Source of the DNA: a virus
Strand: one strand, 5' to 3'
DNA: 29,785 nucleotides
Virus record (IMG/VR): IMGVR_UViG_3300047457_001128
Span: 1-29,785 of that record
This document shows positions 4,583 to 29,771 of this stretch, in pieces. Each line of letters begins with the position of its first letter. Position 1 is the first letter of the stretch. Made by a program: the position numbers and the translations under genes. A model generated the notes under the pieces. That model had not been told where the DNA came from, did not search any database, and saw nothing but the letters and a program-made list of their open reading frames with translations.

Positions 4583-7024
4583 CTAGACATTTACCTCAAA
4601 TTCTAATGCAACAGTGCCTGTCGATGAGGCACCCTTGGCGTCGATTTTAATCCTCACCACGCTGCCTTCCACCTTGGCGTCCACAACAGCATCGCTAAAT
4701 CTTGGGTCAGATACAACGCTTTTCTTAATTATTTCAACCACTTGCTCTGGAGAAAGCTCATTATTCTTTTCCCCAATGAAGGCGGGCATACCGTAAAGGG
4801 GGTGCTGTCTCTGCTCACCACGCTCAGTATTGAGAAGGAGCCTGAGTGCCTGAACAGCGTTTTTGTATCCATAGCTTCTCTGGGCATCCCCAACAGGGTC
4901 AATAACGATATCTCCGTCTTTGTCTAAAGACATATCGATCTTGAACACTCTTTCAGCATGGGAGAGCCTGCTGAGAAGAGGTGTATTGGGCGTATCCTGA
5001 ATATCGTTTGTTGCCAAGGTGGAGGGAATCAGGATGGTATCGCCCGAGCCTACGGTGCCGGGGAGCCGGGTGTGCAGATAGGGATTGCCTCCATTGTAGG
5101 CGTCGAGGTTGTCGTTGCCATCAACCGTGATGCGGTAGGAGTCGCCCACCTTGTCGATATTGACAATGTTGCGAATGGTTCTGGCCACCGAGGCCCCTTG
5201 GATTGAGATCTTCTGGCCAATGACGAGATTGGAGACAGAATCGACAAAGAAAGACCTTCCGCTTGGGGATTGAATGGAGAGATCAAAGCCTGCTTCATCA
5301 ATATAAGGAGCCCTCAGGCCGTTGGTGAGAGCAATCTCCCTAGCCTTTTTGACATCCTTAAAATACCTAAAAGCGATGTCCTCAAGCGACATCCCTCTAT
5401 CCACAAACACCGGAACACCTGAAAGAGGCTGCTCCATTGCATCCTCTGGTGCCACAGCATTATTGGCGTCAGTGAAGGGATTGATATCCTTGTTGTTGAA
5501 AAGGAGGCCTGAAGCCAAGGTGGAGTGAATGGCGTTTTTGGAGTCTTGAATCTGGGCTGAGAGGATAATGGAGTCTTCGGTGAGAGTTCTGGTGGCAGCC
5601 GCACTATTGGTCTGGACTCCATAGAGTGCTGCGTAGGTGGCATCCATCGAGCCTGTGCTTTTGGCAAGATTGTCGGAGATGTCTTGCATCTTCTGTGCCA
5701 AATCTCTCACTTGGCCTGAGGTGAGGGCCTGAGCCTTCTCTTCCTCCTGCTGAATCTGTTCTTGGACAGCTGGGGACAGGGTGAGGGCGTCGATCTGGAT
5801 GGCGTCCTTTACTTCACTGCTAGAGAGAAGGGCATTACCCAAGGTGGTCTTGGCAATTTGGCTAGTTGAATCCGACAGAGCGGCCTTATTCTCAATCTTA
5901 GGCACGGGCTCTGAGCCGGGGTTGGAGTCAAAGCTTGAAATGACATCCTCAATAGCTTTGCTGTTATCCGTTATCATTCTATCCCAGTTATTCTTAACTA
6001 CACCGGGGAAGTCGGCAAGAGTCTTGGCAATGCCAAGAAAGTCCTTAATAAGCAAAATGCTTTGGCCCACAATGTCCGTGATGTTCGCTATGTCACTCTG
6101 AACACCTCTGACGATGTTGTTGTATTGCTCAAAAAAGCCCCTTGTTTTTCTTAGGCTATCCAAGGCAAAGCCCACATAGGATGGGTCTCGGGTGTCTAGC
6201 CCAGCTTTGTCTTCTATGGGGTCGATGCCAGTTGCCGGGATGATTTCCCAAGCCTTCAGCATGATGCTATATCTATAGACGAGAGGACTACTGGCGTCAC
6301 GCTTCATGTCAAAGCTGACAGGAGTGACATAGTAGCCGACATTGTCCTTCCTGCTGATGAACGCAAGCCTCAGGTCGTGCTGTTTTTTCTTTTTCTTTTG
6401 CTCAGCGTAGGCCACAAGGAAGTGATGGAGGAGCCAGAATTGGTAGTAGCCCGTCTTCTCGTACTCACTGTCTTTTAGCTTGTCAGCCTCCTTACCGCTG
6501 TTAAAGATTCTGGCCGCTGTTTTGAGTGTGTTTCCAATGGCTTGGGTGGTAGATGCAAAAATGTCAGTGACAACACTCAGGGCCCCTTCTTTGGGCTTTT
6601 CAATGACATTTCGTCTTTCTGGGAGTATGCCCGTGGTGCCTGTGATAGAGATGGTTCTAAATACCACCCCATTATTCTCTTCAAGAATGCCGTTGTTGGT
6701 TGCCAAAACACTTGAAGCGAAGTGAGTGCTGATGGATATCGCCTGAGGGGGTAGGTTGAGCAATACCTCGCTGAGGCTCTGGATGCCGTTTTGGCCAATG
6801 CCATCCAGAGACTCTTTGGAGCGGCCAACACCGTTTTCTCGATAAACCCTGAATAAATAGGGGTACTGTTTGTTCCAGTCGTCACTGTTGACGTTTTGAA
6901 TCTTTTTAGAGAGATCGCCGCTTACTTGCAATTGCTTCCTGCCATAACCAGCGTCTGCAATATCGGTGTCCGTCTGACCGAGCAGCTTAGCCATGGGATT
7001 GCTTTTAAAATCTGAGAAGTCCAT
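4583..7024 (-). CDS. Baseplate fusion protein: LysM-like segment plus gp25-like wedge domain
   Basis: 813 residues. The C-terminal part, about 690-800 (FKIDMSLDKDGDIVIDP, then NAVQALRLLLNTERGEQ and HPLYGMP), has the pattern of the GPW/gp25 family, which seeds sheath assembly at the baseplate. Residues about 535-580 (VFVDRGMSLEDIAFRYFKD followed by ALTNGLRAPYI, with SGDTILIPS later) look like a LysM/gp53-type module that joins hub and wedge. The N-terminal half has a run KKKKK near residue 210 and 'SPLVYRYSIMLKAWE', similar in style to tail DNA-circularisation/XkdP-like proteins. Residues about 400-470 are Gln/Ala-rich and probably helical. In most phages these are separate proteins, so this is a natural fusion. 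It sits 2 nt after the spike gene and upstream of the J-like gene. The gp25 call is firm, the LysM-like call moderate, and the N-terminus is unassigned. Confidence 0.8.
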   Translation of the reverse strand: MDFSDFKSNPMAKLLGQTDTDIADAGYGRKQLQVSGDLSKKIQNVNSDDWNKQYPYLFRVYRENGVGRSKESLDGIGQNGIQSLSEVLLNLPPQAISISTHFASSVLATNNGILEENNGVVFRTISITGTTGILPERRNVIEKPKEGALSVVTDIFASTTQAIGNTLKTAARIFNSGKEADKLKDSEYEKTGYYQFWLLHHFLVAYAEQKKKKKQHDLRLAFISRKDNVGYYVTPVSFDMKRDASSPLVYRYSIMLKAWEIIPATGIDPIEDKAGLDTRDPSYVGFALDSLRKTRGFFEQYNNIVRGVQSDIANITDIVGQSILLIKDFLGIAKTLADFPGVVKNNWDRMITDNSKAIEDVISSFDSNPGSEPVPKIENKAALSDSTSQIAKTTLGNALLSSSEVKDAIQIDALTLSPAVQEQIQQEEEKAQALTSGQVRDLAQKMQDISDNLAKSTGSMDATYAALYGVQTNSAAATRTLTEDSIILSAQIQDSKNAIHSTLASGLLFNNKDINPFTDANNAVAPEDAMEQPLSGVPVFVDRGMSLEDIAFRYFKDVKKAREIALTNGLRAPYIDEAGFDLSIQSPSGRSFFVDSVSNLVIGQKISIQGASVARTIRNIVNIDKVGDSYRITVDGNDNLDAYNGGNPYLHTRLPGTVGSGDTILIPSTLATNDIQDTPNTPLLSRLSHAERVFKIDMSLDKDGDIVIDPVGDAQRSYGYKNAVQALRLLLNTERGEQRQHPLYGMPAFIGEKNNELSPEQVVEIIKKSVVSDPRFSDAVVDAKVEGSVVRIKIDAKGASSTGTVALEFEVNV

Positions 7025-12344: not shown

Positions 12345-12419
12345 TGGTGGAGACAGGGGGAATCGAACCCCCACTCGTTGAATGCAAATCAACAGTGCTA
12401 CCTTTATCACCATGTCCCC
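12345..12419 (-). tRNA. tRNA-Ala, anticodon UGC, with encoded CCA
   Basis: A 75-base cloverleaf. The acceptor GGGGACA pairs with TGTCTCC including a G3-U70 wobble, the main identity element for alanyl-tRNA synthetase. The D arm is GTG/CAC with a GG-containing loop. The anticodon stem GTTGA/TCAAC holds loop TTTGCAT, so the anticodon is TGC with A at position 37. The variable loop has 4 bases. The T arm is GGGGG-TTCGATT-CCCCC. The discriminator is A and CCA is encoded. It lies inside the late tail operon, 50 bases after the preceding gene and 9 bases before the tape-measure ATG. A Cys (GCA) reading would need a shifted loop that breaks the stem. Confidence 0.92.
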
Positions 12420-14057: not shown

Positions 14058-14471
14058 TTACCCCTCAGCTGATTTCTTAGCCTTCTTTGGGTTCTGGTTG
14101 GCAAACTCTTCAGCCTCTTCGGCGGCCTTGCTGATGCGCTCGTCGTATACTTTTTCGGCATCCAAGGCCTTGTTGTAAACTTCATACAAGACATTGCGGT
14201 CCAGAAGCTCGCGGCCAGAGTCCGAGTCCTTCCACCAAGAAGGGGCCTTGGTGATAGCCACCTCAAGATAGGCAATAGCGCGATTCATCAGCCCTACGCC
14301 CGTTGTGGAGACAGACTGAGAACCGTTGTTATAGGCATCGGTCCTGAGCCCCACTTCGATCAATTCTTTGTTGGAAAGCAGGCATTTGACGGTGAATGAA
14401 CCTTCAAACTTCTGCTTTGTTTTCTCTCCCTGAGCACTCAGGGAAAAGCTATACTCATTGCTGGGCAACAT
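14058..14471 (-). CDS. Small tail assembly protein, probable chaperone
   Basis: 137 residues. It begins with a beta-rich half (EYSFSLSAQGEKTKQKFEGSF, then LIEVGLRTDAYNNG), continues with 'GLMNRAIAYLEVAITKAPSWW', and ends in a Lys/Ala-rich helix (AEEAEEFANQNPKKAKKS). The ITKAPSWW segment followed by 'GRELLDRNVLYEVYN' looks like a conserved core of small phage tail proteins found between tube and tape measure, but I cannot name the family. The first codons overlap the end of the peptidase-like gene by 17 bases, and the AAA+ gene follows 3 nt after the stop. Tight packing suggests joint expression with both. A tail assembly chaperone role is inferred from position. Confidence 0.5.
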   Translation of the reverse strand: MLPSNEYSFSLSAQGEKTKQKFEGSFTVKCLLSNKELIEVGLRTDAYNNGSQSVSTTGVGLMNRAIAYLEVAITKAPSWWKDSDSGRELLDRNVLYEVYNKALDAEKVYDERISKAAEEAEEFANQNPKKAKKSAEG

Positions 14472-14985
14472 TCTTCTTTCTCCTTGTTTTGTTGTACCGT
14501 TTCACAAACCACGCTTGTGGATAATGGCCATCACGGCATAGCCAAGCTTTCATATGAAGTTCACCCACAAAATGGCGGGCGGGCGTATCCCAAAAGGCAT
14601 TCACAACCTCAAACACCGGGGTGCCTGTATTGGATTCTATCTTAGTGACGAGAGTGTAATGGAGGTTCCCATGGTCGCTTTTATGAAGCAAGACCACACT
14701 TCCACCCTTCTCTAGGTGATTGACAATCCCCCTGTAGGTAGGAATCATTCGGTGAACCACTTTCAGGGAGACCCTTTTGCCCACCTGATGGAGAACCCGA
14801 TCAAAGTCTTTTGCTTTAGTACCTGAGTATTCGTGCCCGTCTGGGTCCTTGGTGGCGCAGGCCTTTTCTAAGAATTCGTAATGGGTTTTGATGGTGGCGC
14901 GATGTCCCGACCATTTCAGTAGGTTGATAATGGCAATCGGGCCGCAGCCGTAGTTGTTGTTTTGTTTGGTATACCGAATTCTCAC
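14455..14985 (-). CDS. C39-like papain-fold cysteine peptidase candidate
   Basis: 176 residues. 'KQNNNYGCGPIAIINLLKWSG' carries the nucleophile-type Cys14 at the start of a helix, with Gln8 as possible oxyanion residue. 'GNLHYTLVTKIE' gives His109, and 'FEVVNAFWDT' gives Asn129 as third residue. Order and spacing fit the C39-like/papain-fold superfamily. The C-terminus is basic (NKTRRKKN). There is no signal peptide or wall-binding domain, so it could process virion proteins, act on peptidoglycan as part of the tail, or have lost activity. The start is GTG with no obvious Shine-Dalgarno. It lies between the tube-like genes and the tail chaperone candidates. The fold call is moderately sure, the substrate unknown. 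Confidence 0.6.
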   Translation of the reverse strand: MRIRYTKQNNNYGCGPIAIINLLKWSGHRATIKTHYEFLEKACATKDPDGHEYSGTKAKDFDRVLHQVGKRVSLKVVHRMIPTYRGIVNHLEKGGSVVLLHKSDHGNLHYTLVTKIESNTGTPVFEVVNAFWDTPARHFVGELHMKAWLCRDGHYPQAWFVKRYNKTRRKKNVAQQ

Positions 14986-15445: not shown

Positions 15446-16006
15446 TTATTGGGTATCTACGCCCTTGCCGTAGCCAAGGCCATCGGCATCGGTAGAGTTG
15501 TTGCTTGCTGCGTCGTAAAGACCAACGAAGTTGTAGCGCTCTGAAGCGACATCGCCAGAAGAAACCGAGAAGGAGCGTCCGGTAAACCTTGCGCCTTGGA
15601 TGCTGGCAATGGTTTGATTGGTCTGCTTGTCGGTAATCGTGATGGTCATCGAGTCTCTTTCGAGAATCTTATTGATCTCGTTTTCGAGCTTATGCTGGAT
15701 GGCCGTGGTGTCAGCGAGGACCTTAACGGAAACGGTTTCGCCATTGGCGTTCTTGGTTTCTGCGGTGGTGGTGTTGATCGGAAAGATTCTTCCAATAGAG
15801 CAGGAAACATCATAGCCAACTGGGTCAAGGGCGACTGGGTTGGATGACCCGACCACATAGGTGGTGCGGATATCGTGATTGACGCTTACGCTGATGTCGG
15901 TAGCGAAGGCTAGAGTTTCTTTGCTTCCATCGGCCTTGGTGACTTCGATCTTGCCGCGAGCGCCGGATAAAAGCTGTGGGAGGTGGGTTGGGGTTACGTT
16001 AGCCAT
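15446..16006 (-). CDS. Tail tube-like protein, paralog 2
   Basis: 186 residues, clearly homologous to the gene at 16019-16495. Shared blocks are PQLLSGAR near the start, LAFATDISVSVNHDIRTTYV, SIGRIFPIN, and near the end 'RFTGRSFSVSSGDVASERYNF' with 'GLYDAASNNSTD'. It has an extra C-terminal tail, DADGLGYGKGVDTQ. The beta-rich composition and the place between sheath and tape measure fit a tail tube subunit. A Shine-Dalgarno AGGAG precedes the ATG (GGAGATTGAAATG). The DNA shows a run of near identity with its neighbour at the YDAAS block, consistent with tandem duplication. Which copy is the major tube subunit cannot be decided from sequence. Confidence 0.72.
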   Translation of the reverse strand: MANVTPTHLPQLLSGARGKIEVTKADGSKETLAFATDISVSVNHDIRTTYVVGSSNPVALDPVGYDVSCSIGRIFPINTTTAETKNANGETVSVKVLADTTAIQHKLENEINKILERDSMTITITDKQTNQTIASIQGARFTGRSFSVSSGDVASERYNFVGLYDAASNNSTDADGLGYGKGVDTQ

Positions 16007-16018
16007 TTCAATCTCCTA

Positions 16019-16495
16019 TTAGAAACCGAGCTTGTCGGTGGTGTTACCGCTTGCTGCGTCGTAAATGCCGATAAACTGCAGGCGTTCGGTGGCAAGCTGG
16101 GAGGCCGACAGGCTCAAGCTTCGGCCTGCAAAACGGCAATTCTTGATGGTGGCAACCGTTGCTCCGGTAATCTTGTCTTTCAAGTCGATCTGGATATCGT
16201 CGGCCTTGAGCATCTGATTGATGGCAGGCTCAATGCCCTTAGTGACCGTGGAAATGTCCACCTTGCCGTCATTCTGGTTTGCTGCAGAGGCCTTATTGAC
16301 CGGGAAAACTCGGCCAACGCTGATCTGCACCGGGCTCACCGACAGGGGCTCAACCGAGCGAGCATTGGGAGCGCCGAAGGTGTGGACAGGGCGGACATTG
16401 TGGGACAGGGAAATGGAGACATCGGTGGCAAAAGCGATGGTTTCGGTTCCGATTTTGATCTCGGCTCTTGCACCAGATAAGAGTTGTGGGAGCAT
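16019..16495 (-). CDS. Tail tube-like protein, paralog 1
   Basis: 158 residues: PQLLSGARAEIKIGTETIAF, ATDVSISLSHNV, SVGRVFPVN, then RFAGRSLSLSASQLATERLQF and GIYDAASGNTTD. It shares all these blocks with the next gene. The size and beta-strand pattern are those of contractile tail tube subunits (about 150-190 residues), which form stacked hexamers inside the sheath. The start codon lies 7 nt after GAGGT, which is part of a small inverted repeat TACCT-TG-AGGTA that could cover the ribosome site. It is the first gene of the late block after a 185-base gap. Confidence 0.72.
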   Translation of the reverse strand: MLPQLLSGARAEIKIGTETIAFATDVSISLSHNVRPVHTFGAPNARSVEPLSVSPVQISVGRVFPVNKASAANQNDGKVDISTVTKGIEPAINQMLKADDIQIDLKDKITGATVATIKNCRFAGRSLSLSASQLATERLQFIGIYDAASGNTTDKLGF

Positions 16496-17161: not shown

Positions 17162-17242
17162 TTAGATCTTAATGCTTGCCAACACAGAGAACAAAAGGAA
17201 AAAGAGCCAAATCCTGACAACACTGATAACAACAGCCTTCAC
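17162..17242 (-). CDS. Possible 26-residue membrane microprotein
   Basis: A GTG start overlaps the VWA gene stop (GTGA), with GAGGG four bases upstream as ribosome site. The peptide is (M)KAVVISVVRIWLFFLLFSV followed by LASIKI: one hydrophobic segment with one internal Arg and a basic start, able to span a membrane. The overlap geometry is that of translational coupling to the ViaA-like gene. It is very short, so it could be chance. Conservation of the overlap in relatives would decide. Confidence 0.4.
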   Translation of the reverse strand: MKAVVISVVRIWLFFLLFSVLASIKI

Positions 17243-18582
17243 GCGACCCTCGCAGTCTTGCCCACCAAGTCTTTCACCGTACCCATGTTGCCCTCTGCAT
17301 CCACTTGAGCAATGTGGTCAGAGAACAGCTCCAAGGTCTTGACGCTATAGCACTGGATGGCGATAGAATAGATTCTAGCGCCCGTTTGCTTTTTGTAAAG
17401 AAGAATCTGCTCCAGCTGCTCGTCGGAAAGGCGGGCTTCGCCATCGGTGATGAAGATGATATCAGCAGGCTTCAGCACTTCTTTGGTGCCCTTTTCAGTC
17501 ATCATCTGGAAAGCTTCGGTGAGAGGGGCATAGAAGTTGGTGCCGCCGCCATTGGAGGAGGTGGAGGCGATGGCCACTTTATCCTGAATGGTGGCTGGGC
17601 TTTCTTTCTTGAAAAGCTTCTTGTCGGTGACATAGGACTCAAAGGCCACGAATCCAAAGTCACGCTTTTGCTTCTCAGCCAAGCCCATCAGAGACAGGAT
17701 GACGGCTTTTGCCCACACTTCAGGCGAGCCCGCCATGGAGCCAGACACATCGAGGCAGGCCACAATGGGGCCCTTACCCAGTTCTTCCACACCCTTCAGG
17801 TCGTATTGGAGCAATGCCCGATTGGAGTAGTCCAGAGCAAACTGAGTGGGGTTCATCTTCATTTTGAAGAGTTCGGTGGGAAGCAGGCGGCGGATATCAT
17901 TGCCAGTGATAATGTCCACAATCTCGTCTTGGCCATGGGTATAGGAGGTGGAGACTTCGGTATTGACAATGTTCTTCATCTTGCCAGCAAGGTCTGAAAT
18001 GCGCTTAAGCTGATTTGCTGCAGTGAGTTGTTCAGCCAACTTAAACTTCTCTTCAAAGGGGAGGTTCTGAAGCTCACCCTTATTGATGCCCCAAGTAGAA
18101 ACAGCTTGACCCCAGTCATCAGCTGCCTGCTGGGCAGCCTCAACACCCTTGCGGATAGCCTGACGGACATGAGACATTTCTTCTTCAGTGAGGAGGTCTT
18201 CAAGGCCATCGCCAGAAACGGGGGTGCCATCGGACTTTTTGCCAGTCTTTTTGGCCTGCTCTGCCTTCTTTTCTGCCTCTTTTTGCTGCTCAATGAAGTT
18301 GGGAGCAAACTTGGTGGTGCCAAAGGCTGAGGCAACGTCATCCATGCGGGTGGAGGTGTGGAGGGCCTTGTAGTCTTTAGAGGAAATGAGCTGGCTCATC
18401 ATGGAGCTATTGGTGGTGTTTTCAACCAGCTCCGGGCTCATCTTAAAGAAGGAGTTGAAGACATCCTGAGTGAGGGTCTCGTTCTTTTCACAGAGGGAGG
18501 AGATTTTGCTTGATTCCTTAACGGACTCAAACTGAATCTTGTCAAACCCGGTAAAAGCAATTGCATTGTTCTTCTTACTCAT
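17239..18582 (-). CDS. ViaA-like VWA-domain protein, partner of the MoxR ATPase
   Basis: 447 residues from the ATG at 18582 (MSKKNNAIAF). A longer frame back to 18660 runs through the promoter and is rejected. The C-terminal VWA domain has a complete MIDAS: D278-x-S280-x-S282 in DVSGSMAGS, T348 in GGGTNF and D380 in ITDGEA. Upstream, 'LPFEEKFKLAEQL', 'LKRISDLAGKMKNI' and 'GNDIRRLLPTELFKMKMNP' resemble the region before the VWA domain in ViaA/CoxE-type proteins. Residues 97-120 are a Lys/Glu/Ala-rich linker. Proteins of this kind act with RavA-type MoxR ATPases as chaperones for metal centres or complexes. A RavA-like gene lies 2 kb upstream under a related promoter. The ATG comes 6 nt after the -10, so the transcript may be leaderless. 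Confidence 0.85.
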   Translation of the reverse strand: MSKKNNAIAFTGFDKIQFESVKESSKISSLCEKNETLTQDVFNSFFKMSPELVENTTNSSMMSQLISSKDYKALHTSTRMDDVASAFGTTKFAPNFIEQQKEAEKKAEQAKKTGKKSDGTPVSGDGLEDLLTEEEMSHVRQAIRKGVEAAQQAADDWGQAVSTWGINKGELQNLPFEEKFKLAEQLTAANQLKRISDLAGKMKNIVNTEVSTSYTHGQDEIVDIITGNDIRRLLPTELFKMKMNPTQFALDYSNRALLQYDLKGVEELGKGPIVACLDVSGSMAGSPEVWAKAVILSLMGLAEKQKRDFGFVAFESYVTDKKLFKKESPATIQDKVAIASTSSNGGGTNFYAPLTEAFQMMTEKGTKEVLKPADIIFITDGEARLSDEQLEQILLYKKQTGARIYSIAIQCYSVKTLELFSDHIAQVDAEGNMGTVKDLVGKTARVA

Positions 18583-18588
18583 AAATCC

Positions 18589-18617
18589 AGCATAGCAGGG
18601 TTCATGACTAAATGCAA
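18589..18617 (-). promoter_or_regulatory. Repeated promoter module, copy 1 (VWA gene)
   Basis: -35 TTGCAT (18612-18617), 17-base spacer, -10 TATGCT (18589-18594). The spacer starts TTAGTCAT and ends ACCCTGC, as in copies 4 and 5. The VWA ATG is exactly 6 bases after the -10. The preceding small gene ends 4 bases upstream of the -35. Confidence 0.8.
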
Positions 18618-18620
18618 CAA

Positions 18621-18908
18621 CTATTTTACTCTTTTTAATGGATTCACCATAACGTAACAAACCTCCTCCACACGGAGGGGTTCATCCTCGAACAGGCTTC
18701 TGAATTCGGTATGTCTCACTGTGAGCTTAAATTCCATCTTTTTAGTTGTGGGAGATGCGTCGGGTAAGGAGTCCCCAATGGACTCTATTTCTATCGGCTC
18801 ATGCACTGCTATTGAATAATAGTAGGGGGGATTTTCCCCCAGCTCCAAGGACAGGATGGCCTTAGAGTATGGGGTGTTGATGTTCCTATAGAATCGGTAT
18901 TGTTTCAT
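18621..18908 (-). CDS. Hypothetical protein starting at a terminator U-tract
   Basis: 95 residues from the ATG at 18908 (MKQYRFYRNINTPYSK). A GTG at 18938 would add ten residues, but it lies inside a terminator stem. The protein looks globular and beta-rich (AILSLELGENPPYYYSIAVH, FKLTVRHTEFRSLFEDEP, LRVEEVCYVMVNPL). The family is not recognised. There is no Shine-Dalgarno, since the bases before the ATG are the terminator's T-tract. Expression would need read-through from the 298-residue gene. It ends just before promoter copy 1. Confidence 0.6.
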   Translation of the reverse strand: MKQYRFYRNINTPYSKAILSLELGENPPYYYSIAVHEPIEIESIGDSLPDASPTTKKMEFKLTVRHTEFRSLFEDEPLRVEEVCYVMVNPLKRVK

Positions 18909-18940
18909 ATAAAAGGTGGGGGCTCTTTTGACCCCCACCC
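18909..18940 (-). terminator. Intrinsic terminator after the 298-residue gene
   Basis: An 8-bp stem GGTGGGGG (18932-18939 on the minus strand) pairs with CCCCCACC (18915-18922), loop of nine bases, followed by TTTTAT. It lies 16 bases after the stop of the upstream gene. The next ATG follows the U-tract directly. Confidence 0.85.
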
Positions 18941-18955
18941 ATTTATTGTACGGAT

Positions 18956-19852
18956 TTAAGCGGTGGTTTCCTCCCCAACCACACCAGTCAAAGTTTTGGC
19001 AAGTGAACCCAGACGGTCCTTGAGCTTGTCGGCAGTGCCTTGAAGCAGGAAGGCGTAGTTGTCCACCTTAGCCTCAAGCTGAGCAAAGCGTTCAACACGA
19101 ACCTTGATGGAGCGGTCAGACTCAACACCAGTCAAGTCTGAAAAGTCGGTTTCCATGGTCTTGATTTCAGCCTCAACCTCAGCCTTGAAGGCGTCCCACA
19201 TGAACCTGCGCTCATTGGCGGTATCAGGAACGCCCAAAGTGAGGAGGCTTGCCTCAGGATAAAGGGCAAACAATGCCTTGATTTTGCTCAGTTGCTCATC
19301 ATTGGTGCGTGGGACAAAGTACATGCCACCACGGTCGCGCACAGTGAGGTAGTCACAGTAGTGCTTGAGCAAGTACAGAACGAGGTCTCTCATCTGGTCA
19401 CTGTCGTAGTGGTGCAGCCAGTAGTTGTAGCGGTTTTTGATTTCTTCTTCTGCAGGAGAAAGTTGGGTGAGTTCTTGGCCATTGAGGTCGCGGAACTTCA
19501 CCTCACCAGTGCCCTTAACCAACACTGCCTTGGTGGAGGTTTGGACAGTGACATTGTAATTGTCGGGGTCAACTTGAGTGTAAATGATGATTCTGACGCA
19601 GACAGCCTGATTGTCTGGGCCCTTTTCCACTCTGGCCCCAATTTCCTTGGCCACATGGTCAACAGACTTCAGGAATGCGGTCTTATTGCGGACATTTCCA
19701 ACCAGATTGCCATCTAGGCCAGCCCGGTTGACATTGTCTCTGATGCTGGTGACGGAGTCACGGAACCCAGTGATAGACCAGCAAAGGACTGAACCTATGC
19801 TGTTGCTGTATTCTGAGGACTTATTAATCAATTCTCTGATTTGGTTACTCAT
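18956..19852 (-). CDS. Unknown 298-residue protein between the MoxR and VWA genes
   Basis: 298 residues, no recognised catalytic motif. Residues 1-130 are mixed alpha/beta (RELINKSSEYSNSIGSVLCW, then CVRIIIYTQVDPDNYNVTV). The middle has 'WLHHYDSDQMRDLVLYLLKH' and 'TVRDRGGMYFVPRTNDEQL', where GGMYFVP looks like a conserved core. The C-terminal 90 residues are helical and charged, probably coiled coil (DAFKAEVEAEIKTMETDF, RVERFAQLEAKVDNYAFLL). Phages with MoxR/VWA pairs often encode other unknown proteins nearby. Promoter copy 2 and AAGGGAG before the ATG drive it, and an intrinsic terminator follows, so it is its own unit, co-regulated with the ATPase and VWA genes. A substrate, adaptor or structural role is possible. 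I cannot name the family. Confidence 0.75.
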   Translation of the reverse strand: MSNQIRELINKSSEYSNSIGSVLCWSITGFRDSVTSIRDNVNRAGLDGNLVGNVRNKTAFLKSVDHVAKEIGARVEKGPDNQAVCVRIIIYTQVDPDNYNVTVQTSTKAVLVKGTGEVKFRDLNGQELTQLSPAEEEIKNRYNYWLHHYDSDQMRDLVLYLLKHYCDYLTVRDRGGMYFVPRTNDEQLSKIKALFALYPEASLLTLGVPDTANERRFMWDAFKAEVEAEIKTMETDFSDLTGVESDRSIKVRVERFAQLEAKVDNYAFLLQGTADKLKDRLGSLAKTLTGVVGEETTA

Positions 19853-19876
19853 GTTTTCTCTCTCCCTTATAAAACC

Positions 19877-19905
19877 AGCATAGCCTGAATGACTGAAATA
19901 GTCAA
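19877..19905 (-). promoter_or_regulatory. Repeated promoter module, copy 2 (298-residue gene)
   Basis: -35 TTGACT (19900-19905), 17-base spacer, -10 TATGCT (19877-19882). The spacer differs from copy 3 by one base (ATTTC-A/G-GTCATTCAGGC). Here the triplet 6 bases after the -10 is ATA, not ATG, and a strong AAGGGAG site serves the gene. Confidence 0.85.
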
Positions 19906-19912
19906 CAACTAT

Positions 19913-20128
19913 TTATTTAAATGTCTTTTCTGTAATCCTATTTATGTCCCTAAGCTGCACCTGAAGGTCCCATCGGTCACTAGCAATCCACTTCCTAACA
20001 GTGTTCTTTGCTTCACCAAGCTTATCAAACGGTCCTTTAGCTGAGGTGTAGTCCAGCGGCGGAAACTCCCCATCCTCAAGCTTAATAATGCTATACTCCA
20101 AATTAACGCCAACGGCCCAATATTTCAT
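19913..20128 (-). CDS. Hypothetical 71-residue protein
   Basis: MKYWAVGVNLEYSIIKLEDG, then a segment FDKLGEAKNTVRKWIASDRW, ending INRITEKTFK. A small alpha/beta fold is likely. The layout (short strands, then 'G-x-A...W') resembles small host-takeover proteins of large phages, without a recognisable family. AAAGAGGGGG precedes the ATG. It is the last gene of a three-gene unit from promoter copy 3 and stops just upstream of promoter copy 2. Confidence 0.6.
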   Translation of the reverse strand: MKYWAVGVNLEYSIIKLEDGEFPPLDYTSAKGPFDKLGEAKNTVRKWIASDRWDLQVQLRDINRITEKTFK

Positions 20129-20143
20129 ATCACGCCCCCTCTT

Positions 20144-20389
20144 TCATGATTTGCCCTCAAGCTTATAGTCAATTGCACTCACAGCATCTCGAAGCCGACT
20201 AAACCCTTTGTCACAGTTTAGATACCAGTCAAAGCAGCTTGGTTTGCCGTTTTCAAAATGATTGTAAATCTCAAAGTAGTTTTGCACGAACCAGCATCTA
20301 ACAATGATGTACCCACGATATTCGTAGACAGGGTGATTCTTTTGAAATTGGGTGTAAGTTCCGATGCGCTTGGGTTTTGCATCTTTCAT
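20144..20389 (-). CDS. Hypothetical 81-residue protein
   Basis: MKDAKPKRIGTYTQFQKNHP, then VYEYRGYIIVRCWFVQNYFE and a segment GKPSCFDWYLNCDKGFSRL, ending YKLEGKS. The 'YRGYIIVRCWF...F-x-I' pattern and the late 'DAVSAID' helix suggest a compact alpha/beta protein. The ATG overlaps the stop of the upstream 37-residue frame (ATGA). Its own last codons lie in a 22-bp repeat shared with that frame. Function unknown. Confidence 0.65.
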   Translation of the reverse strand: MKDAKPKRIGTYTQFQKNHPVYEYRGYIIVRCWFVQNYFEIYNHFENGKPSCFDWYLNCDKGFSRLRDAVSAIDYKLEGKS

Positions 20390-20404
20390 GATTCGCCCTC
20401 AAGC
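20383..20404. repeat. 22-bp direct repeat, second copy at 20141-20162
   Basis: The two 22-bp copies differ at one base (CTTTCATGATT-C/T-GCCCTCAAGC on the plus strand). Each encodes the ending LEG(E/K)S plus stop of a small gene: here the 37-residue frame, at 20141-20162 the 81-residue frame. This suggests duplication of a gene-end/gene-start junction. Confidence 0.7.
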
Positions 20405-20499
20405 AGGCAACAGAAATGTCCTTGGTGGTGTAGTTTCCCACACTGTTCTGCTTGGTTCTGAGGTACTTTCCATCTTTTTTTCAGTCTAGCAACAAACAT
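20386..20499 (-). CDS. 37-residue Cys/His-rich mini-protein
   Basis: The frame starts with an ATG 6 bases after the -10 of promoter copy 3. It reads MFVARLKKRWKVPQNQAEQ, then CGKLHHQGHFCC and LLEGES. The cluster C20, H24, H25, H28, C30, C31 could bind a metal. The stop overlaps the next ATG (ATGA). There is no Shine-Dalgarno, so it would rely on leaderless initiation. Coupling and metal-type spacing support it, but the short length leaves doubt. Confidence 0.5.
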   Translation of the reverse strand: MFVARLKKRWKVPQNQAEQCGKLHHQGHFCCLLEGES

Positions 20500-20505
20500 A
20501 AAACC

Positions 20506-20534
20506 AGCATAGCCTGAATGACCGAAATAGTCAA
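20506..20534 (-). promoter_or_regulatory. Repeated promoter module, copy 3 (small-gene unit)
   Basis: -35 TTGACT (20529-20534), 17-base spacer, -10 TATGCT (20506-20511), preceded by AAAATAGTTG. Nearly identical to copy 2 from upstream of the -35 through the TTTTAT after the -10. An ATG follows the -10 by 6 bases. Confidence 0.85.
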
Positions 20535-20545
20535 CAACTATTTTA

Positions 20546-20573
20546 TAAAAAAGGGGCCATTCCGTGGCCCCTT
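20546..20573 (-). terminator. Intrinsic terminator after the MoxR gene
   Basis: Stem GGGGCCA/TGGCCCC (20553-20571) with loop CGGAA, followed by T6. It is 8 bases after the MoxR stop and directly before promoter copy 3, so the MoxR unit is closed off from the small-gene unit. Confidence 0.93.
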
Positions 20574-20581
20574 AAACTAGA

Positions 20582-21706
20582 TCACTTTTTACCAGCAGGA
20601 GTTCCGTCCAAGACCTTCATTCTGAGGTCTTTAACCAGAGAGATGGCTTGGGCGAGCTTCTCGTTTTCACTTGACTTACCCAGACCCTCAAGGCCCTTGA
20701 CAATCTTACCCAAGGCAATGCCCGCTTCCATTGCATCGGCCTTAGCGTTGTTCCAGTTCTCGTACTGCTCGCGGGCAGCGTCGGTGAATTCCACAATCTT
20801 CTCACCCACGGGATTGGTGAAGCGGGCAATAAGTTTCTTGATGAGCTTGTGGTGGGACGGGTCATCTTCCCACAGGACGTGCTCCAAAATTTCGATATCG
20901 TCTAAAGACACAGCGGTGCGGCCACGGTAGTGGGCATGGGCCTTCATCACTTTATATGCTTTATTGAGTTTGCGGTCACTAATGTAGAGGCCTTCATTTT
21001 GGATGGCCCTTCTGAGATTAAGCAGAGCGTCAATCACAGCATCATCATCGGCCACTTCGTCAACCTGTTTTTGTGCTTCAGCCAACTCTTCCATGGAGAT
21101 GCTGGGGACATCTACTTTTCCAGACTTTTTCAGCATGCTCTTGACAGAGTCATCTTCCTGCATTTGCTTCACCTCAAGGCGCAGGGTAAAGCGGTTATTG
21201 AATGCAGCCAGCTCCTTAGCTTCCGGCAGCTCATTGGATGCACCAACAATCATCTGGAGAGGGAGCTTCTTGGCTACGCCATTTTCAGTGAAAGTGCGTT
21301 CATTGGCAATAGAAAGGAGAGCATTGAGGGTGGCTGAATTACATTTGAAAATTTCATCAATGAAGGCAACATGAGCTTCTTGGATAGAGTTCTTGGTGTT
21401 GCGTTTGAACTGGCCCTTGATGAGGTCTTCAACAGAAGGAGCGCCAACAATCTCATCCACAACGGTGGTTTTGGAGACCAACACCTGAAAGGAGTTTCCA
21501 CCAACGGCTGCGGTGAAAGCTTCGGTGATGGCTGATTTGGCAGTGCCGGGCAAGCCCAAGAGAAGGATGTTTTCTTGAGAGAGAGCGGTCACCATCAGGG
21601 CATCCACAACGGAGTCACGCTCTTTGAAGTTGGTTTTGAGAGCATTTGCTATTGCTTGTAGCTTGTTGCCATTTGCAGACTTAATTTCCAATACTTTCTT
21701 TGCCAT
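20582..21706 (-). CDS. RavA-like MoxR-family AAA+ ATPase
   Basis: 374 residues from the ATG at 21706 (MAKKVLEIKSANG), chosen because AAGGAG lies 6 nt upstream. An in-frame ATG at 21733 begins 6 nt after the -10. Walker A is GLPGTAKS (51-58), Walker B AFIDE (114-118), sensor-1 Asn158 in GASNELPEA, and arginine-finger R172 in FNNRF. The 'GLPGTAKS ... DEIFKCNSATLNALL ... NERTF ... ASNELPEA' pattern matches the RavA branch of MoxR. The C-terminal 120 residues are helical with an extended lid. MoxR ATPases work with VWA proteins as chaperones, and the ViaA-like gene downstream fits as partner. Promoter copy 4 and a strong terminator make it a single-gene unit. The role in phage infection is not established from sequence. 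Confidence 0.92.
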   Translation of the reverse strand: MAKKVLEIKSANGNKLQAIANALKTNFKERDSVVDALMVTALSQENILLLGLPGTAKSAITEAFTAAVGGNSFQVLVSKTTVVDEIVGAPSVEDLIKGQFKRNTKNSIQEAHVAFIDEIFKCNSATLNALLSIANERTFTENGVAKKLPLQMIVGASNELPEAKELAAFNNRFTLRLEVKQMQEDDSVKSMLKKSGKVDVPSISMEELAEAQKQVDEVADDDAVIDALLNLRRAIQNEGLYISDRKLNKAYKVMKAHAHYRGRTAVSLDDIEILEHVLWEDDPSHHKLIKKLIARFTNPVGEKIVEFTDAAREQYENWNNAKADAMEAGIALGKIVKGLEGLGKSSENEKLAQAISLVKDLRMKVLDGTPAGKK

Positions 21707-21739
21707 CCTCATCTCCTTTTGCCCATCAGGCATATACTC

Positions 21740-21768
21740 AATCTAACAGGGTGTATGACTAAATGCAA
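21740..21768 (-). promoter_or_regulatory. Repeated promoter module, copy 4 (MoxR gene)
   Basis: -35 TTGCAT (21763-21768), 17-base spacer starting TTAGTCAT and ending ACCCTGT, -10 TAGATT (21740-21745). The leader GAGTATATG with a downstream AAAAGGAG is shared in outline with copies 5 and 6. Confidence 0.85.
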
Positions 21769-21777
21769 CAAAAAAGT

Positions 21778-22161
21778 TTATGATGAATGATTTTTTTTGG
21801 TCCTTTTATAGATAGCCTCTATCTTGGCAAGGGTTGCGGCTTTAGCCTCCTCTATGGAGCCATAGCCCTCCATAACGCCATCGGTAGATGATGCCCCAAA
21901 CACTTTTCCACCACGGGTCTGATGGATGGAGAAGTTGGGGGCTTTCCCAACCATCACATGACGGACACCACGCCTGTAGTAGACCTCGTCTTCTGGACTG
22001 ACCACCTCTGACTTCTTGTAAGCGGGTTCGTTGGGCATGACATAAATCTTCACCCCAACATCACGTCCTTTGCTATCTTTAACACCAAAGCTGATGCTGG
22101 CCACCACAGAGTGTTTCCAATCACCATTGTTTTCCCAGACAAGGTTAGAAAGATTTAGCAT
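21778..22161 (-). CDS. Hypothetical 127-residue protein
   Basis: MLNLSNLVWENNGDWKHSVV, then a strand-rich core (VGVKIYVMPNEPAY, EVYYRRGVRHVMVG, NFSIHQTRGGKVF) and a helix (IEEAKAATLAKIEAIYKRT). It looks like a small soluble alpha/beta protein. The GGGAGG ribosome site is 6 nt before the ATG. A 10-codon frame starting 6 nt after the -10 ends across this ATG, so upstream translation could couple to it. It sits between promoter copies 5 and 4. Family not recognised. Confidence 0.65.
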   Translation of the reverse strand: MLNLSNLVWENNGDWKHSVVASISFGVKDSKGRDVGVKIYVMPNEPAYKKSEVVSPEDEVYYRRGVRHVMVGKAPNFSIHQTRGGKVFGASSTDGVMEGYGSIEEAKAATLAKIEAIYKRTKKNHSS

Positions 22162-22193
22162 CTGAGCCTCCCTGCCCCATTGGGCATATACCC

Positions 22194-22222
22194 AATCTAA
22201 CAGGGTCTATGACTAAATGCAA
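22194..22222 (-). promoter_or_regulatory. Repeated promoter module, copy 5
   Basis: -35 TTGCAT (22217-22222), 17-base spacer, -10 TAGATT (22194-22199). The spacer differs from copy 4 by one base, and both are preceded by a T6 tract and GTTGCAT. The leader GGGTATATG and GGGAGG follow. Confidence 0.85.
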
Positions 22223-22429: not shown

Positions 22430-22465
22430 TTTGTTAGCTTCCTTTTGTTCATTGGACATATACTC

Positions 22466-22494
22466 AATCTAACAGGGTGCGTTAGAAATGGCAA
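22466..22494 (-). promoter_or_regulatory. Repeated promoter module, copy 6
   Basis: -35 TTGCCA (22489-22494), 17-base spacer ending CACCCTGT, -10 TAGATT (22466-22471). It keeps the spacer end and -10 of copies 4 and 5 but diverges in the first half of the spacer. It starts 12 bases after the stop of the 55-residue gene. Confidence 0.8.
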
Positions 22495-23028: not shown

Positions 23029-24807
23029 TTAAGCAGCTCTCTGAACACGAATGTCGGAGAGAACGAACTCGTAGTTTTCAACCAGAGCGAGCGTAACGCC
23101 GATGCGGATAATGGAGCCTTCGAGCTTAATCGTGAGGTCCTTATATCCACGGCCACCCGTGTTATTGTCGCCAACGATGATGCCAGCCGATTTCAGGCTG
23201 TCAAACACGCTGATGAGGCTGTTACGAATGCTCTCTTCAGACAAGTCGCTATTGCGAACGCCAATGAATGCTTCGGTGTTCAGACGCAGGGTATATGCAG
23301 CCAAGTCAGCGGCATAGATGACGCTAGGACGATTGAAAATCCAAGCATCCTTGGTGTCTTGATAAGTGGTGTTGTCCATGGCGAAACGATATCCGCCATT
23401 AGGAGCTTTTTCCACATAACAGAGGTTTGCTCTGATAGCTTTTTCTGCCTGAGTTTCTGGGTCGAAATCTGCATGGCTGAAGCCCGAGATGCTAGGAGCC
23501 TTGTTCAGGTTAGAAAGTCCGGGGAGAGCGGAGGCTTTCATGCCTGCAGAAAGCACTGCGAGCATATGAGGCTGCATGGTGACCAGTTCACCCGAAGCGG
23601 CGATGGCATCAACATCTTGGAATGCCATCTGAACGCGATAAGCATTCAAGTCGGAAGCTGCTTCGATAGCCTCATCAAATGAACCCTTGAAGCCAACAAA
23701 GCCCTGACGCTCTTTGCGTCCTTTGATGGTAGAAGCTTCGTTGCAATGGCTTCTGACAGCAGCATGCACAGAAGCGATGCTGTAGCTTGAGGCTGCGTCG
23801 GTGAGGTCGTCAGAAATGTCGTCAGCAGCGTCTCTCGAAAAGAGAGGGATGACGAAATTGATACGACGTTTCAGGAGGGCATCAATCCCGTCCTGAATGT
23901 CAGCTTGAGAGGTGGCACCTTTAGCGCCGCCAGAGAGGAGCGTGCGTGCCATTACGGAAGGAACGCCTGCGGTCGCCGTTGCGGAGAAATCCACCAACGA
24001 GGAGGCTGCGAAAAATTCCTTCACTTCACTCAGATCTTTGTCGAAATCGCGAGCAACGAGAATTCCTGCTGCAGACGCTTTGTCCAGAACAGAAACAGGC
24101 TTTGCGCCCATTGTTGCGGAAGCGGCTGATGCGGAGTAGCCGGGATTCTGATTGATCAATTCAACCAGCTTAGCAACATTGGAGACCGTCGAAAGATCGA
24201 TATCGAGGTTCTGAGCGGTGGAGCCGCCAGTGACAGCCGTGGTGAGTTTCTTGTCGGTGAGGGTGACGGTAGCAGCCGAGGCAGCGCCATCGGTGCATTG
24301 AAGGGTCATAACCGTATTGCCGCCAATCGGGTCACTCACTTCAACCAAACCTTTTTGAAGGTCGTTGATGGTGATAATTGTGCTGCCAGATACGAGAGCA
24401 ACCTGAACAGAAATCTGATTTCCGCCGATGCCGCCACGCTTGTCAGTGACAGTGCCGTAGCTAGGCAGGGTGAGGGATGCCTTGGTGGTGGCATTTGTCT
24501 TGATGAGGACCAGTTCCTGAGCACCGCCACGGATGGCTGGGTCATTGGAGGGGCTGATAGCGAGCTTTGCAGCATCAACCAGCGGGCCGCTTCCAAACTT
24601 CTCAGCAATCGCAGCAAACTCATCTGGGCCAAAGGTCACAGCCGAGAGTCCCGATTCTTCCGAGAAGGGTGCGCCTTCCGTCGATTCACCGATCAAAGCA
24701 ACAACGCCCAAGGCCGGAGATGCGACCGTGGAGCCTGTAACTCTAACATCCGAATAGCTGCCCGGTTTAACCAGAGTAGCTCCATTGAAATTCACTGTAA
24801 TTGCCAT
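23029..24807 (-). CDS. Contractile tail sheath protein
   Basis: 592 residues. The start (LVKPGSYSDVRV, then SPALGVVALIGESTEGAPF) is the classic tail sheath N-terminus. Later blocks include 'LVLIKTNATTKASLTLPSYG', 'GNQISVQVALVSGS', and the conserved C-terminal part ('NGGYRFAMDNTTYQDTKD', 'TEAFIGVRNSDLSEESIRNS', 'GRGYKDLTIKLEG') that forms the core contacting the tube. The length is normal for large sheaths (T4 gp18 has 659 residues). The sheath contracts to drive the tube through the host envelope. The gene is the last of the neck-sheath block and ends at a terminator. Usually the tube gene follows directly, whereas here 6.5 kb of other genes intervene. Confidence 0.95.
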   Translation of the reverse strand: MAITVNFNGATLVKPGSYSDVRVTGSTVASPALGVVALIGESTEGAPFSEESGLSAVTFGPDEFAAIAEKFGSGPLVDAAKLAISPSNDPAIRGGAQELVLIKTNATTKASLTLPSYGTVTDKRGGIGGNQISVQVALVSGSTIITINDLQKGLVEVSDPIGGNTVMTLQCTDGAASAATVTLTDKKLTTAVTGGSTAQNLDIDLSTVSNVAKLVELINQNPGYSASAASATMGAKPVSVLDKASAAGILVARDFDKDLSEVKEFFAASSLVDFSATATAGVPSVMARTLLSGGAKGATSQADIQDGIDALLKRRINFVIPLFSRDAADDISDDLTDAASSYSIASVHAAVRSHCNEASTIKGRKERQGFVGFKGSFDEAIEAASDLNAYRVQMAFQDVDAIAASGELVTMQPHMLAVLSAGMKASALPGLSNLNKAPSISGFSHADFDPETQAEKAIRANLCYVEKAPNGGYRFAMDNTTYQDTKDAWIFNRPSVIYAADLAAYTLRLNTEAFIGVRNSDLSEESIRNSLISVFDSLKSAGIIVGDNNTGGRGYKDLTIKLEGSIIRIGVTLALVENYEFVLSDIRVQRAA

Positions 24808-27238: not shown

Positions 27239-27568
27239 TCAAGGCTTTTTGTTGGGATCTTTTGGCGTCTTAATGGCGGCAATTGCTGCTGCCATGGCAT
27301 CTTTCTTTTTTTGAGCCAAAGCCTTCTTCTCTTCTTCGGTGAGAGGCTTCATTGCGGCTTGCTTTGAGGCAAGCTTTTGTGACCAGCCTTTGGAAAGAAC
27401 CTCTTTTGCCCGATTACTGCCTCGGATGGGCCTTCCTTTTTCGTCCTGACCCTTATTCAGTTCCTGTTTCTTCAGGTCATTATAGGACATGCCCTTCTCT
27501 AAAGAAGGCTCCTCCCCTTTATTGAGGATTTCTTTTGTCTTTTTAATGAGGTCATCTATTTTTGACAT
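27239..27568 (-). CDS. Lys-rich protein with shared N-terminal peptide (paralog A)
   Basis: 109 residues. MSKIDDLIKKTKEILNKG, then PSLEKGMSYNDLKKQELNKG. The first 34 residues match the next gene upstream closely. The rest is highly Lys/Ala-rich and probably helical or disordered (EEEKKALAQKKKDAMAAAIA). The start is TAATG-coupled to the previous stop. A DNA- or capsid-interior-associated virion protein is possible; the common peptide could be a targeting or cleavage element. Confidence 0.6.
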   Translation of the reverse strand: MSKIDDLIKKTKEILNKGEEPSLEKGMSYNDLKKQELNKGQDEKGRPIRGSNRAKEVLSKGWSQKLASKQAAMKPLTEEEKKALAQKKKDAMAAAIAAIKTPKDPNKKP

Positions 27569-28008
27569 TATTCTTCGTCTTTTACTATCTTGGCAGTGTC
27601 TTGCCTTGCCAGCTTGCGCTGTTTGCCACCCATCTTGGCTTTGCCTTGGGGGTAGAGTGTCTCTATTTTCTTGCGGTTTTCATTGTCCTTTTCATTGACA
27701 ATGATGTTTTTTGCGCGTTCAATAGAAAAGCTGGCCAGCCAATTAGCATGTTCTTCCGGGGCCTTCTGTATGTGAGGGAAGGCCTCCTTGATTTTATTGA
27801 CGGTGCTCGGGTCTTTAAGAAACTGAGCCTCCCTAACCGCAACACCAACATCTGAAATGCCCGGATTCTTTGGGTCGGCTGGCTTATAAACAGCCTTCTC
27901 AAGGTCCTTCAGTTGGTTGTAGCTCATTCCCTCTTGTAAAGTGGGGGCTGGTGCTGATTTGGTGAGAATTTCTTTAGCCTTCTTAATAAGAGAGATGATT
28001 TTGGACAT
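27568..28008 (-). CDS. Protein with shared N-terminal peptide (paralog B)
   Basis: 146 residues. MSKIISLIKKAKEILTKS, then APTLQEGMSYNQLKDLEKAV: the start is a near copy of the neighbour at 27239-27568. The middle (ISDVGVAVREAQFLKDPSTV, FPHIQKAPEEHANWLASFSI) looks folded; the end is basic (GKAKMGGKQRKLARQDTAKI). Both ends are TAATG-coupled to their neighbours. No known family. Position before neck genes suggests a virion or assembly role. Confidence 0.6.
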   Translation of the reverse strand: MSKIISLIKKAKEILTKSAPAPTLQEGMSYNQLKDLEKAVYKPADPKNPGISDVGVAVREAQFLKDPSTVNKIKEAFPHIQKAPEEHANWLASFSIERAKNIIVNEKDNENRKKIETLYPQGKAKMGGKQRKLARQDTAKIVKDEE

Positions 28009-29771
28009 TACTTGGTCTCTTTTTCTTTCAGCTGATTGTAGGACATGCCCTTTTTGATGGTGAGTTTGTGCCCTTCTTTTTCTTCTGCTTCCTTGTTTTC
28101 GACCATGTGTTGCTCTACCAGCTCTTCCACCTTTTCGCCAAGCTCTGCGTCAGACTTGGAGTCGGGGTTGGATTCAGACTTTTTCATGTTATGAATATAT
28201 CTGTTCAACTTATCTTCGCCTTTACCGGCATAGTGATGTCCCGATCCAGGCCTAGCGCTTCCGTTCCAATGCCAATTTCCATCCTTTTGGTAAACAGAGA
28301 TTGACCTGTCAGCCCTTTTGTAGGTGTGGTGATTGATTTTTTCACCATTGAGATGGGTGACTGGGGTTGAATGGCTATATGAAAATCCGGCATCAATTAG
28401 GGTTTCATGGTGCGGATTTTTAGTATGGTCTGCATCAAATCCCTGACCACAAGAATTTGCATCTTTAATTGCCTTCGCGAGCGGCTTATTGGCCTTAGGC
28501 TTGTCGAAATGGGTGGCTGGTGCAGCTGGCTTAGACGGCGTCATGTGTGGGTTCGGAGCCGCTGGAGCCTTGGGCTTCTTGTTTGAGTGGTTGTCAGATG
28601 GAGCCGATGGTGCTACAGCTAAGTTTTTGTCTAGCTCAGACTTGCCCATACCGGAGCGGTCTTGGTACTTCATTTTTGTTGTTTGAAGGGCCCTTTCTTT
28701 TGCCTCACCCACGGCGGCTTTCATCTCTCCGCGCTGATGTTGAGTCACCGCAGTTTTAAGCTCTGGGCTTTTGGCTTGAATTGCTTCGCTGGCCGCACTC
28801 GGTGCAGCATGTCTAACATGCACACCCTGTTTTGATGCGTTGTAGGCTCCGGTCTTGTGGTCCTTCAGTTGTTCTGAGGGGTCAAACTTCGCGCCCTTCT
28901 CCAGTTCCTTCATCTGATTGAAAGACTTTCCAATCAAAGACTTTTCACATTTTTCCATAGGTCCTCCGTGGGTTGCGCCGCAATAGGCACATTGGGATTC
29001 TTGTTTCTCAGGTTTGGCCATTTCTGGCTTTGCATTTCTCATCTCAGTGAGTTTCTGACGCAAAGCTTCAATCTTCTTGGCCTTATTTTCATGAATTTCT
29101 TCAGAATGAACAATAATATGAGGGTCGTTACCATCGTACTCTACCGGGGTTGGGGCCGTCATGTGGGGATCGATAGCCTTATTATGCTGTTCATGGGCAA
29201 TACCAGCGGCGGCGATGGTTGTGGTGAGGGCCGCGCCAAGGACAGCGTCCTTAATAATGCCCTTCTCAAGGGTGGGTTCGGACTTATTCATTTTGTTTTT
29301 TGGATTCTTTTTGGACTTCTCTTGGGCCAAAAATTCATGCTCATAGGATTCGGCCAAATCCCTATGTCTGAGGGTGTTATCTCTGTTTGGATTTTTAGCA
29401 CTCTCCTTAAGCTGATTTGCAACTTTTAAGTGATCTTTACTGTTCCAATGCTTAGTTCCATTTCGCATTCTTGAACCAAGGTCGCCTTGATAGTCAAATT
29501 CGATCGCTTTAGAAGCGTGCGTAAGTTTGCTTACATAAGCTTTGTCGTGACCATACTTGGTCTCAGTAACACTAGGCTTTTCATTGCTTGCGTCAGCTAC
29601 CTTAAGTTGCCCCTTAGGCTCTGATGGGCTGTCGGTTGGGAGGTCCGCGAGGACCTTACCCGGCTCTTCTTTGTTTCCGGGGCCAGCAATAATCTTAGCC
29701 TTATTCAGCTCGTCCTGCTTCATTTGAGCGTAGGACTTGGCTACAGCCTCAGATTTATAACATTTTTTCAT
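28008..29771 (-). CDS. Multi-segment Lys/His-rich protein with repeated peptide motifs
   Basis: 587 residues from the ATG at 29771. The frame stays open upstream to the window edge and no Shine-Dalgarno is visible, so the real start may lie outside. Three motif copies: KSYAQMKQDELNK (12-24), GKSFNQMKELEKG (281-293), KGMSYNQLKEKE (574-585). Also 'SEPTLEKG' at 164-171, as in the two small paralogs. Residues 173-192 are a Gly/Ala hydrophobic segment. C261-x2-C264 and C275 with H268 could bind zinc. About 440-530 is a His/Gly/Trp-rich domain (INHHTYKRADRSISVYQ, NWHWNGSARPGSGHH). Pro/Ala-rich linkers (385-425) separate parts. A capsid-interior or injected multi-domain protein is an attractive but unproven reading. 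Confidence 0.6.
   Translation of the reverse strand: MKKCYKSEAVAKSYAQMKQDELNKAKIIAGPGNKEEPGKVLADLPTDSPSEPKGQLKVADASNEKPSVTETKYGHDKAYVSKLTHASKAIEFDYQGDLGSRMRNGTKHWNSKDHLKVANQLKESAKNPNRDNTLRHRDLAESYEHEFLAQEKSKKNPKNKMNKSEPTLEKGIIKDAVLGAALTTTIAAAGIAHEQHNKAIDPHMTAPTPVEYDGNDPHIIVHSEEIHENKAKKIEALRQKLTEMRNAKPEMAKPEKQESQCAYCGATHGGPMEKCEKSLIGKSFNQMKELEKGAKFDPSEQLKDHKTGAYNASKQGVHVRHAAPSAASEAIQAKSPELKTAVTQHQRGEMKAAVGEAKERALQTTKMKYQDRSGMGKSELDKNLAVAPSAPSDNHSNKKPKAPAAPNPHMTPSKPAAPATHFDKPKANKPLAKAIKDANSCGQGFDADHTKNPHHETLIDAGFSYSHSTPVTHLNGEKINHHTYKRADRSISVYQKDGNWHWNGSARPGSGHHYAGKGEDKLNRYIHNMKKSESNPDSKSDAELGEKVEELVEQHMVENKEAEEKEGHKLTIKKGMSYNQLKEKETK

Follow-up and report, generated by a model that had tools for sequence, protein, structure and literature searches.

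We analysed a 29,785-base fragment of a viral genome, the whole of IMG/VR virus record IMGVR_UViG_3300047457_001128 (hereafter the window), and found that it encodes a MoxR-type AAA+ ATPase of the RavA branch, a ViaA-like protein with a VWA domain and a protein of the DUF6744 family. Judging from the recurrence of the three genes in divergent genomes, they constitute a conserved three-component viral module. The three proteins probably work as one machine that remodels other proteins in tailed viruses. Among viruses, MoxR-VWA pairs have mainly been described from Acidianus two-tailed virus (ATV), haloviruses and jumbo phages, and their targets are poorly understood. The retention of a third gene in highly divergent viruses places DUF6744 in a functional context for the first time and offers a testable entry to the target. 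The three genes are located as follows.

17239-18582, minus strand: ViaA-like VWA protein of 447 amino acids (aa) with a full MIDAS
18956-19852, minus strand: DUF6744 protein (PF20529) of 298 aa, the third component
20582-21706, minus strand: RavA-branch MoxR AAA+ ATPase of 374 aa, whose open reading frame (ORF) reaches 21733 from an upstream ATG

IMG/VR was scanned with a MoxR profile and a DUF6744 profile, GTDB genomes were scanned with DUF6744, and all ORFs of the loci were compared with the three family profiles. The first-pass annotation of the window had made its proposal depend on co-occurrence of the three genes in related phages, and such linkage was found: at 76 non-redundant loci with a RavA-type MoxR gene, nearly all viral, the fetched stretch held a VWA gene in 75 cases and a DUF6744 gene in 59, although MoxR loci were sought with a single motif pattern close to the query, and 59 of 76 should not be taken as an unbiased rate. 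All three genes were on one strand in 58 of the 59 full-trio loci, which showed five gene orders and a median span of 4.1 kb. Searches of whole records added DUF6744 in two further records, at the far contig end in L059 (adjoining if the record is circular) and about 11 kb off in L088. When 1,818 genes of the loci were clustered by sequence only, the three families appeared in 63, 62 and 46 loci, and the next family in 14. Pairwise distances of the three families were correlated (r = 0.66-0.74, permutation maximum 0.26), with r values inflated by shared descent. This constancy of the trio in unrelated surroundings suggests that selection keeps the three genes together.

The reverse search gave a similar picture. 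The pair was present in five of six viral loci with DUF6744, the sixth being cut by a contig end, and in three of four DUF6744 loci in bacterial assemblies, the fourth (a 4-kb contig) having the VWA gene. Among 399 genomes from the phylum of the Ammonifex assembly, 12 had DUF6744 above the cut-off. Seven of these carried the triad locally, one contig was too short, one had a truncated DUF6744 alone, two had near-identical loci without the pair, and one had AAA and DUF2201 metallopeptidase-VWA genes. DUF6744 and the RavA-type lid, present in 12 and 17 of the 399 genomes respectively, shared seven (hypergeometric p = 5e-8, uncorrected for relatedness). The E. coli control genome had no DUF6744. 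RavA/ViaA matches in INPHARED “phage” records (Salmonella contigs and “Escherichia phage” fragments) were bacterial or bacterial-looking and were not counted; OR845595, OR850905, OR845822, OR851173, MG065691 and MG065686 look like host contamination, judging from the similarity of the matches.

Several observations weigh against the three-component reading. DUF6744 occurs without a recognised pair nearby in L121, L124 and L125. Conversely, Bacillota have RavA/ViaA-type pairs without DUF6744 nearby, and eight large viral records (L045, L046, L051-L053, L061, L064 and L072) keep the pair with no DUF6744 in the whole record. The pair can therefore work without DUF6744. In a MoxR tree made by a quick method and with a weak backbone, the triad is spread across the tree and DUF6744 status changes several times; this tree is too weak for dating the gain or loss of DUF6744. 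The eight-record clade has a common reverse-transcriptase gene near the RavA/ViaA pair. Most of its members also encode a single-chain RNA polymerase of about 2,020 aa, with Rpb2 and Rpb1 domains in one ORF (L046:2691-8795; homologues in L051, L052, L053, L061, L064 and L072).

The ATPase matched bpMoxR (1.2e-47), AAA_5 (2e-21) and AAA_lid_8 (2.1e-16) in Pfam. It carries the Walker A and B motifs, sensors and arginine that define the MoxR-type AAA+ core, and in the alignment Walker A (GLPGTAKS), Walker B (FIDE), sensor-1 (SNELPE) and the SDRK sensor-2 region are intact. With a six-member profile of the family, RavA (3nbx) was the best-matching MoxR structure (7.6e-81), followed by 2r44 (6.3e-15), and the assignment to the RavA branch is therefore correct. 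The profile match stops at about RavA residue 316 and the protein has 374 aa compared with about 500 in RavA; the LARA domain is absent. LARA is the RavA domain that binds the lysine decarboxylase LdcI. By sequence, then, the window protein is a RavA-branch MoxR and not an orthologue of RavA. The start at 21706, which has a GGAG-like site in front of it, is likelier than the upstream ATG at 21733, which coincides with the inferred transcription start.

The listed ORF of the VWA protein begins at 18660 (TTG), while the ATG at 18582, located after a promoter copy, yields 447 aa. The protein matched VWA_CoxE in Pfam (1.4e-8) and phrog_24053 (1.1e-54). Aligned by hhalign, 49 VWA relatives matched Salmonella ViaA with 99.9% probability (2e-33, 270 columns). 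The homology starts upstream of the VWA core and includes GDDxLRLLPPEL; it covers ViaA residues 174-472 only, with the N-terminal half of ViaA not aligned. The MIDAS residues D278, S280, S282, T348, D374 and D380 show little or no variation across 47 VWA sequences, and this at about 25% identity among the sequences. The AlphaFold2 model (pLDDT 90.4) has a helical N-terminal half and strands 220-227 and 257-263 preceding the VWA core, which is at the C-terminus. By analogy with NorD (PMC9976466, PMC13036017), we infer that these strands are a candidate pore finger. Pfam detected no effector or other domain on the protein, and there was no metallopeptidase match. The first-pass annotation had called the two proteins a RavA-branch MoxR ATPase and a VWA protein with a full MIDAS and a ViaA-like upstream region, and both descriptions hold.

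The 298-aa protein, previously noted as unknown, does belong to a named family, and only the absence of an assigned function still stands from that description. It matched PF20529 at 2.7e-18 (66.4 bits against a 27-bit cut-off) over model positions 8-302 of 314, and no other Pfam family was found in it. Its confident AlphaFold2 model (pLDDT 93.2) has mixed alpha/beta structure towards the N-terminus and three long helices in the C-terminal part, and a motif R-x-x-G-G-x-Y-F-V-P at 172-181 is conserved. Searches by sequence or fold for solved relatives gave nothing convincing; the best fold match had E 5e-3, and TM scores to the query were less than about 0.2. Predicted viral models, including L7TK87 of HVTV-1, do resemble it. 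DUF6744 is the least conserved of the trio, with a mean identity of 18% against 26% and 34% for the other two. No case of DUF6744 fused to MoxR or VWA was found, and it is named in no paper of the searchable literature, which leaves most subscription journals outside. The earlier proposal that this protein belongs with the MoxR-VWA pair gains support from the conserved linkage.

A sigma70-like promoter repeat (TTGCAT or TTGACT, 17 nt, TAGATT or TATGCT) occurs in six copies between 18.58 and 22.5 kb, each 5′ of a transcription unit. When the window was scanned with a matrix built from the six copies, no further site exceeded the shuffle maximum. The observation that the genes sit in separate units under copies of one promoter is thus borne out, and the copies are confined to this cluster. 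The promoters, terminators and small genes of the cluster are listed below.

18587-18617, minus strand: promoter copy upstream of the VWA gene
19875-19905, minus strand: promoter copy upstream of the DUF6744 gene (TTGACT, 17 nt, TATGCT)
20504-20534, minus strand: promoter copy upstream of the small genes 20144-20389 and 19913-20128
21738-21768, minus strand: promoter copy upstream of the MoxR gene (TTGCAT, 17 nt, TAGATT)
22192-22222, minus strand: promoter copy upstream of the 127-aa gene
22464-22494, minus strand: promoter copy upstream of a 74-aa gene
18940-18914, minus strand: terminator-like hairpin with a T-run, after the DUF6744 gene
20573-20551, minus strand: terminator-like hairpin with a T-run, after the MoxR gene
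19913-20389, minus strand: two small genes of 81 and 71 aa, no convincing family
21778-22161, minus strand: small gene of 127 aa, no family found, not conserved with the module

Transcription of the cluster is separate from that of the tail genes. The host-type promoters may be a hint that it is expressed before the late genes.

In NorQD, a MoxR ring and a MIDAS adaptor pull on or twist the target (PMC13036017). Judging from homology and motif conservation, the window module may act in a comparable way. MoxR would form a RavA-type hexamer as the source of ATP-driven force. The VWA protein would dock on the ring, probably via the conserved beta-stranded protrusion before the VWA core (GxDLxRLLPxEL...QYxL), as modelled on NorQD, and its metal-ion site would grip an acidic residue of the target. 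DUF6744 would be a dedicated third partner, most likely an adaptor bringing the target or itself the remodelled protein. Rather than on the virion, the module probably acts on a viral complex for replication or recombination, or on a host complex encountered early in infection. In relatives, the best-conserved neighbours of the module are a PD-(D/E)XK nuclease, a helicase, AAA_24 and DNA polymerase A. Among the PHROG matches of the 300 nearest neighbours, the most prominent are exonucleases, primase/helicase, DnaB, Sak4, DNA polymerase, clamp loader and processivity factor, and structural families are few. These neighbours are moderate evidence as a guide to the target, since structural genes are harder to recognise than replication genes and the counts have no baseline.

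The first-pass annotation had suggested an action on phage assembly, in which the module would fold or assemble tail or head proteins and DUF6744 would be a virion or scaffold client. The module does lie amid tail genes in the window and in L043. In ATV the MoxR protein p618 has both p892, a VWA protein, and virion proteins as binding partners (PMC4124505), and Iyer et al. proposed an assembly role for the MoxR-VWA pairs of jumbo phages (PMC7824862). Elsewhere, however, the neighbours are mainly genes of DNA metabolism, the clustering of neighbour genes shows no tail or head gene as a recurrent companion of the module, and a tail sheath was recognised in only 9 of 48 records. In L043, the nearest sheath-bearing relative, the module is on the strand opposite to the tail genes and is followed by a DNA ligase gene. 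The module also has its own sigma70-like promoters apart from the tail genes. The assembly proposal finds no support here. We consider a virion-assembly chaperone doubtful, and a virion target equally so.

A module directed at the host or at competitors, which would remodel a host complex or exclude other phages with DUF6744 as sensor or effector, is rather unlikely. Cellular ternary systems combine the same MoxR-VWA core with a third protein (PMC7159879), the low conservation of DUF6744 within the trio would be expected of a protein facing a variable target, and the promoters look host-type. However, PADLOC gave no match for the three window proteins, the VWA protein is without an effector domain, and the third component is stable and not swapped. 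Linkage without shared function, with three early genes together by chance or recent common descent, is very unlikely. The inflation of distance correlations by shared descent would fit it, but the surrounding genes differ, linkage is kept although gene order is reshuffled five ways, and mean identity of MoxR is 34%. Insertion of a metal or cofactor into a viral enzyme such as ribonucleotide reductase, a role like that of NorQD towards nitric oxide reductase, is highly improbable. In two viruses the genes for DUF6744 and ribonucleotide reductase are close together: in Moorella phage MTATph1 the DUF6744 gene is directly downstream, and in HVTV-1 less than 1 kb separates them. However, this enzyme occurs in just 7 of 43 module-bearing records, mostly far off, and near DUF6744 only in these two, a count that largely refutes it as the target.

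A remodelling machine acting on replication or on an early host complex is the reading that we regard as probable. We propose only tentatively that DUF6744 marks a virus-specific class of ternary MoxR-VWA machines that remodel the viral replication or recombination apparatus or a host complex that blocks it. If true, this would be a previously undescribed AAA+ remodelling step in phage replication and a machine common to bacterial and archaeal tailed viruses.

DUF6744 is also present in isolated viruses. The isolated phage MTATph1 has the trio (CDS0119, DUF6744; CDS0115 and CDS0114). The haloarchaeal viruses HVTV-1, HCTV-1, HCTV-5 and their kin have DUF6744 (PF20529 3e-19, hhalign 98.7%) with a different AAA/VWA pair; in HVTV-1 it is about 15 kb from an AAA and VWA pair that the RavA/ViaA profiles used did not recognise. 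MoxR/VWA pairs of more than one branch may therefore have a DUF6744-like partner. On a bacterial chromosome (L120:9546-15231, minus strand), DUF6744 lies beside RadC, a DUF2201 metallopeptidase-VWA gene and an AAA gene, so that the trio logic recurs there with another MoxR/VWA branch.

Nearly all convincing genes of the window are on the minus strand. The tail sheath, the baseplate and other tail genes identify the source virus as a contractile-tailed phage. A contractile tail was rejected as a common trait of module-bearing viruses, given the sheath count above, and with the stricter PF04984 no record was above the cut-off. Other features of the window are listed below.

4583-7024: baseplate-type protein
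12345-12419, minus strand: tRNA-Ala (TGC) gene within the tail gene cluster
14455-14985, minus strand: 176-aa protein among the tail genes, with a YGCGPIAIINLLKWSG motif that resembles a C39/papain-like peptidase (spotted by eye)
15446-16495: small virion-structural proteins
23029-24807: tail sheath (phrog_279, 1.7e-44)

The region from 1 to 4.5 kb was considered as ORF-free and this was rejected, as a single long ORF runs off the left contig end. At 27239-29771 (minus strand), a peptide of the form GMSYNQLKxxE is found near the N-termini of two proteins of 109 and 146 aa, and also at both ends and in the middle of a 587-aa protein (regular-expression check only). One possibility is that head proteins share it as a targeting or protease-cleavage signal.

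Viral MoxR-VWA pairs (PMC7824862, PMC4124505, PMC7911831) and cellular MoxR-VWA ternary systems (PMC7159879) are already known; the searchable literature, which leaves out most subscription journals, yielded no viral ternary version with DUF6744. RavA-ViaA of Enterobacteria shares with the window module the ATPase branch, the type of VWA partner including the pre-core region, and adjacent genes. It differs in that the window MoxR lacks LARA, the N-terminal half of ViaA is unaligned, and the DUF6744 gene is extra and absent in E. coli. In ATV, p618 and p892 are likewise a viral MoxR and a VWA protein that bind each other, with a proposed chaperone role (PMC4124505). However, p618 is a virion component of 618 aa with only a partial AAA match (29.8%), and no DUF6744 is reported. 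Jumbo-phage group 2.2 is a MoxR-VWA pair of tailed phages (PMC7824862) whose VWA protein has an N-terminal metallopeptidase, whereas the N-terminal half of the window protein is helical. NorQD likewise combines a MoxR hexamer with a VWA/MIDAS adaptor; it provides the best docking model, and the NorD VWA (9qhe) was among the structure matches. It belongs to another MoxR branch and its target is nitric oxide reductase. In the cellular ternary systems (VMAP, iSTAND and others), a conserved third protein likewise accompanies the MoxR-VWA core (PMC7159879). By Pfam, no VMAP, iSTAND, FtsH-type or beta-propeller third component is in the window trio. Here, the third protein is DUF6744, there are no effector domains, and the module resides in viruses and prophage-like loci.

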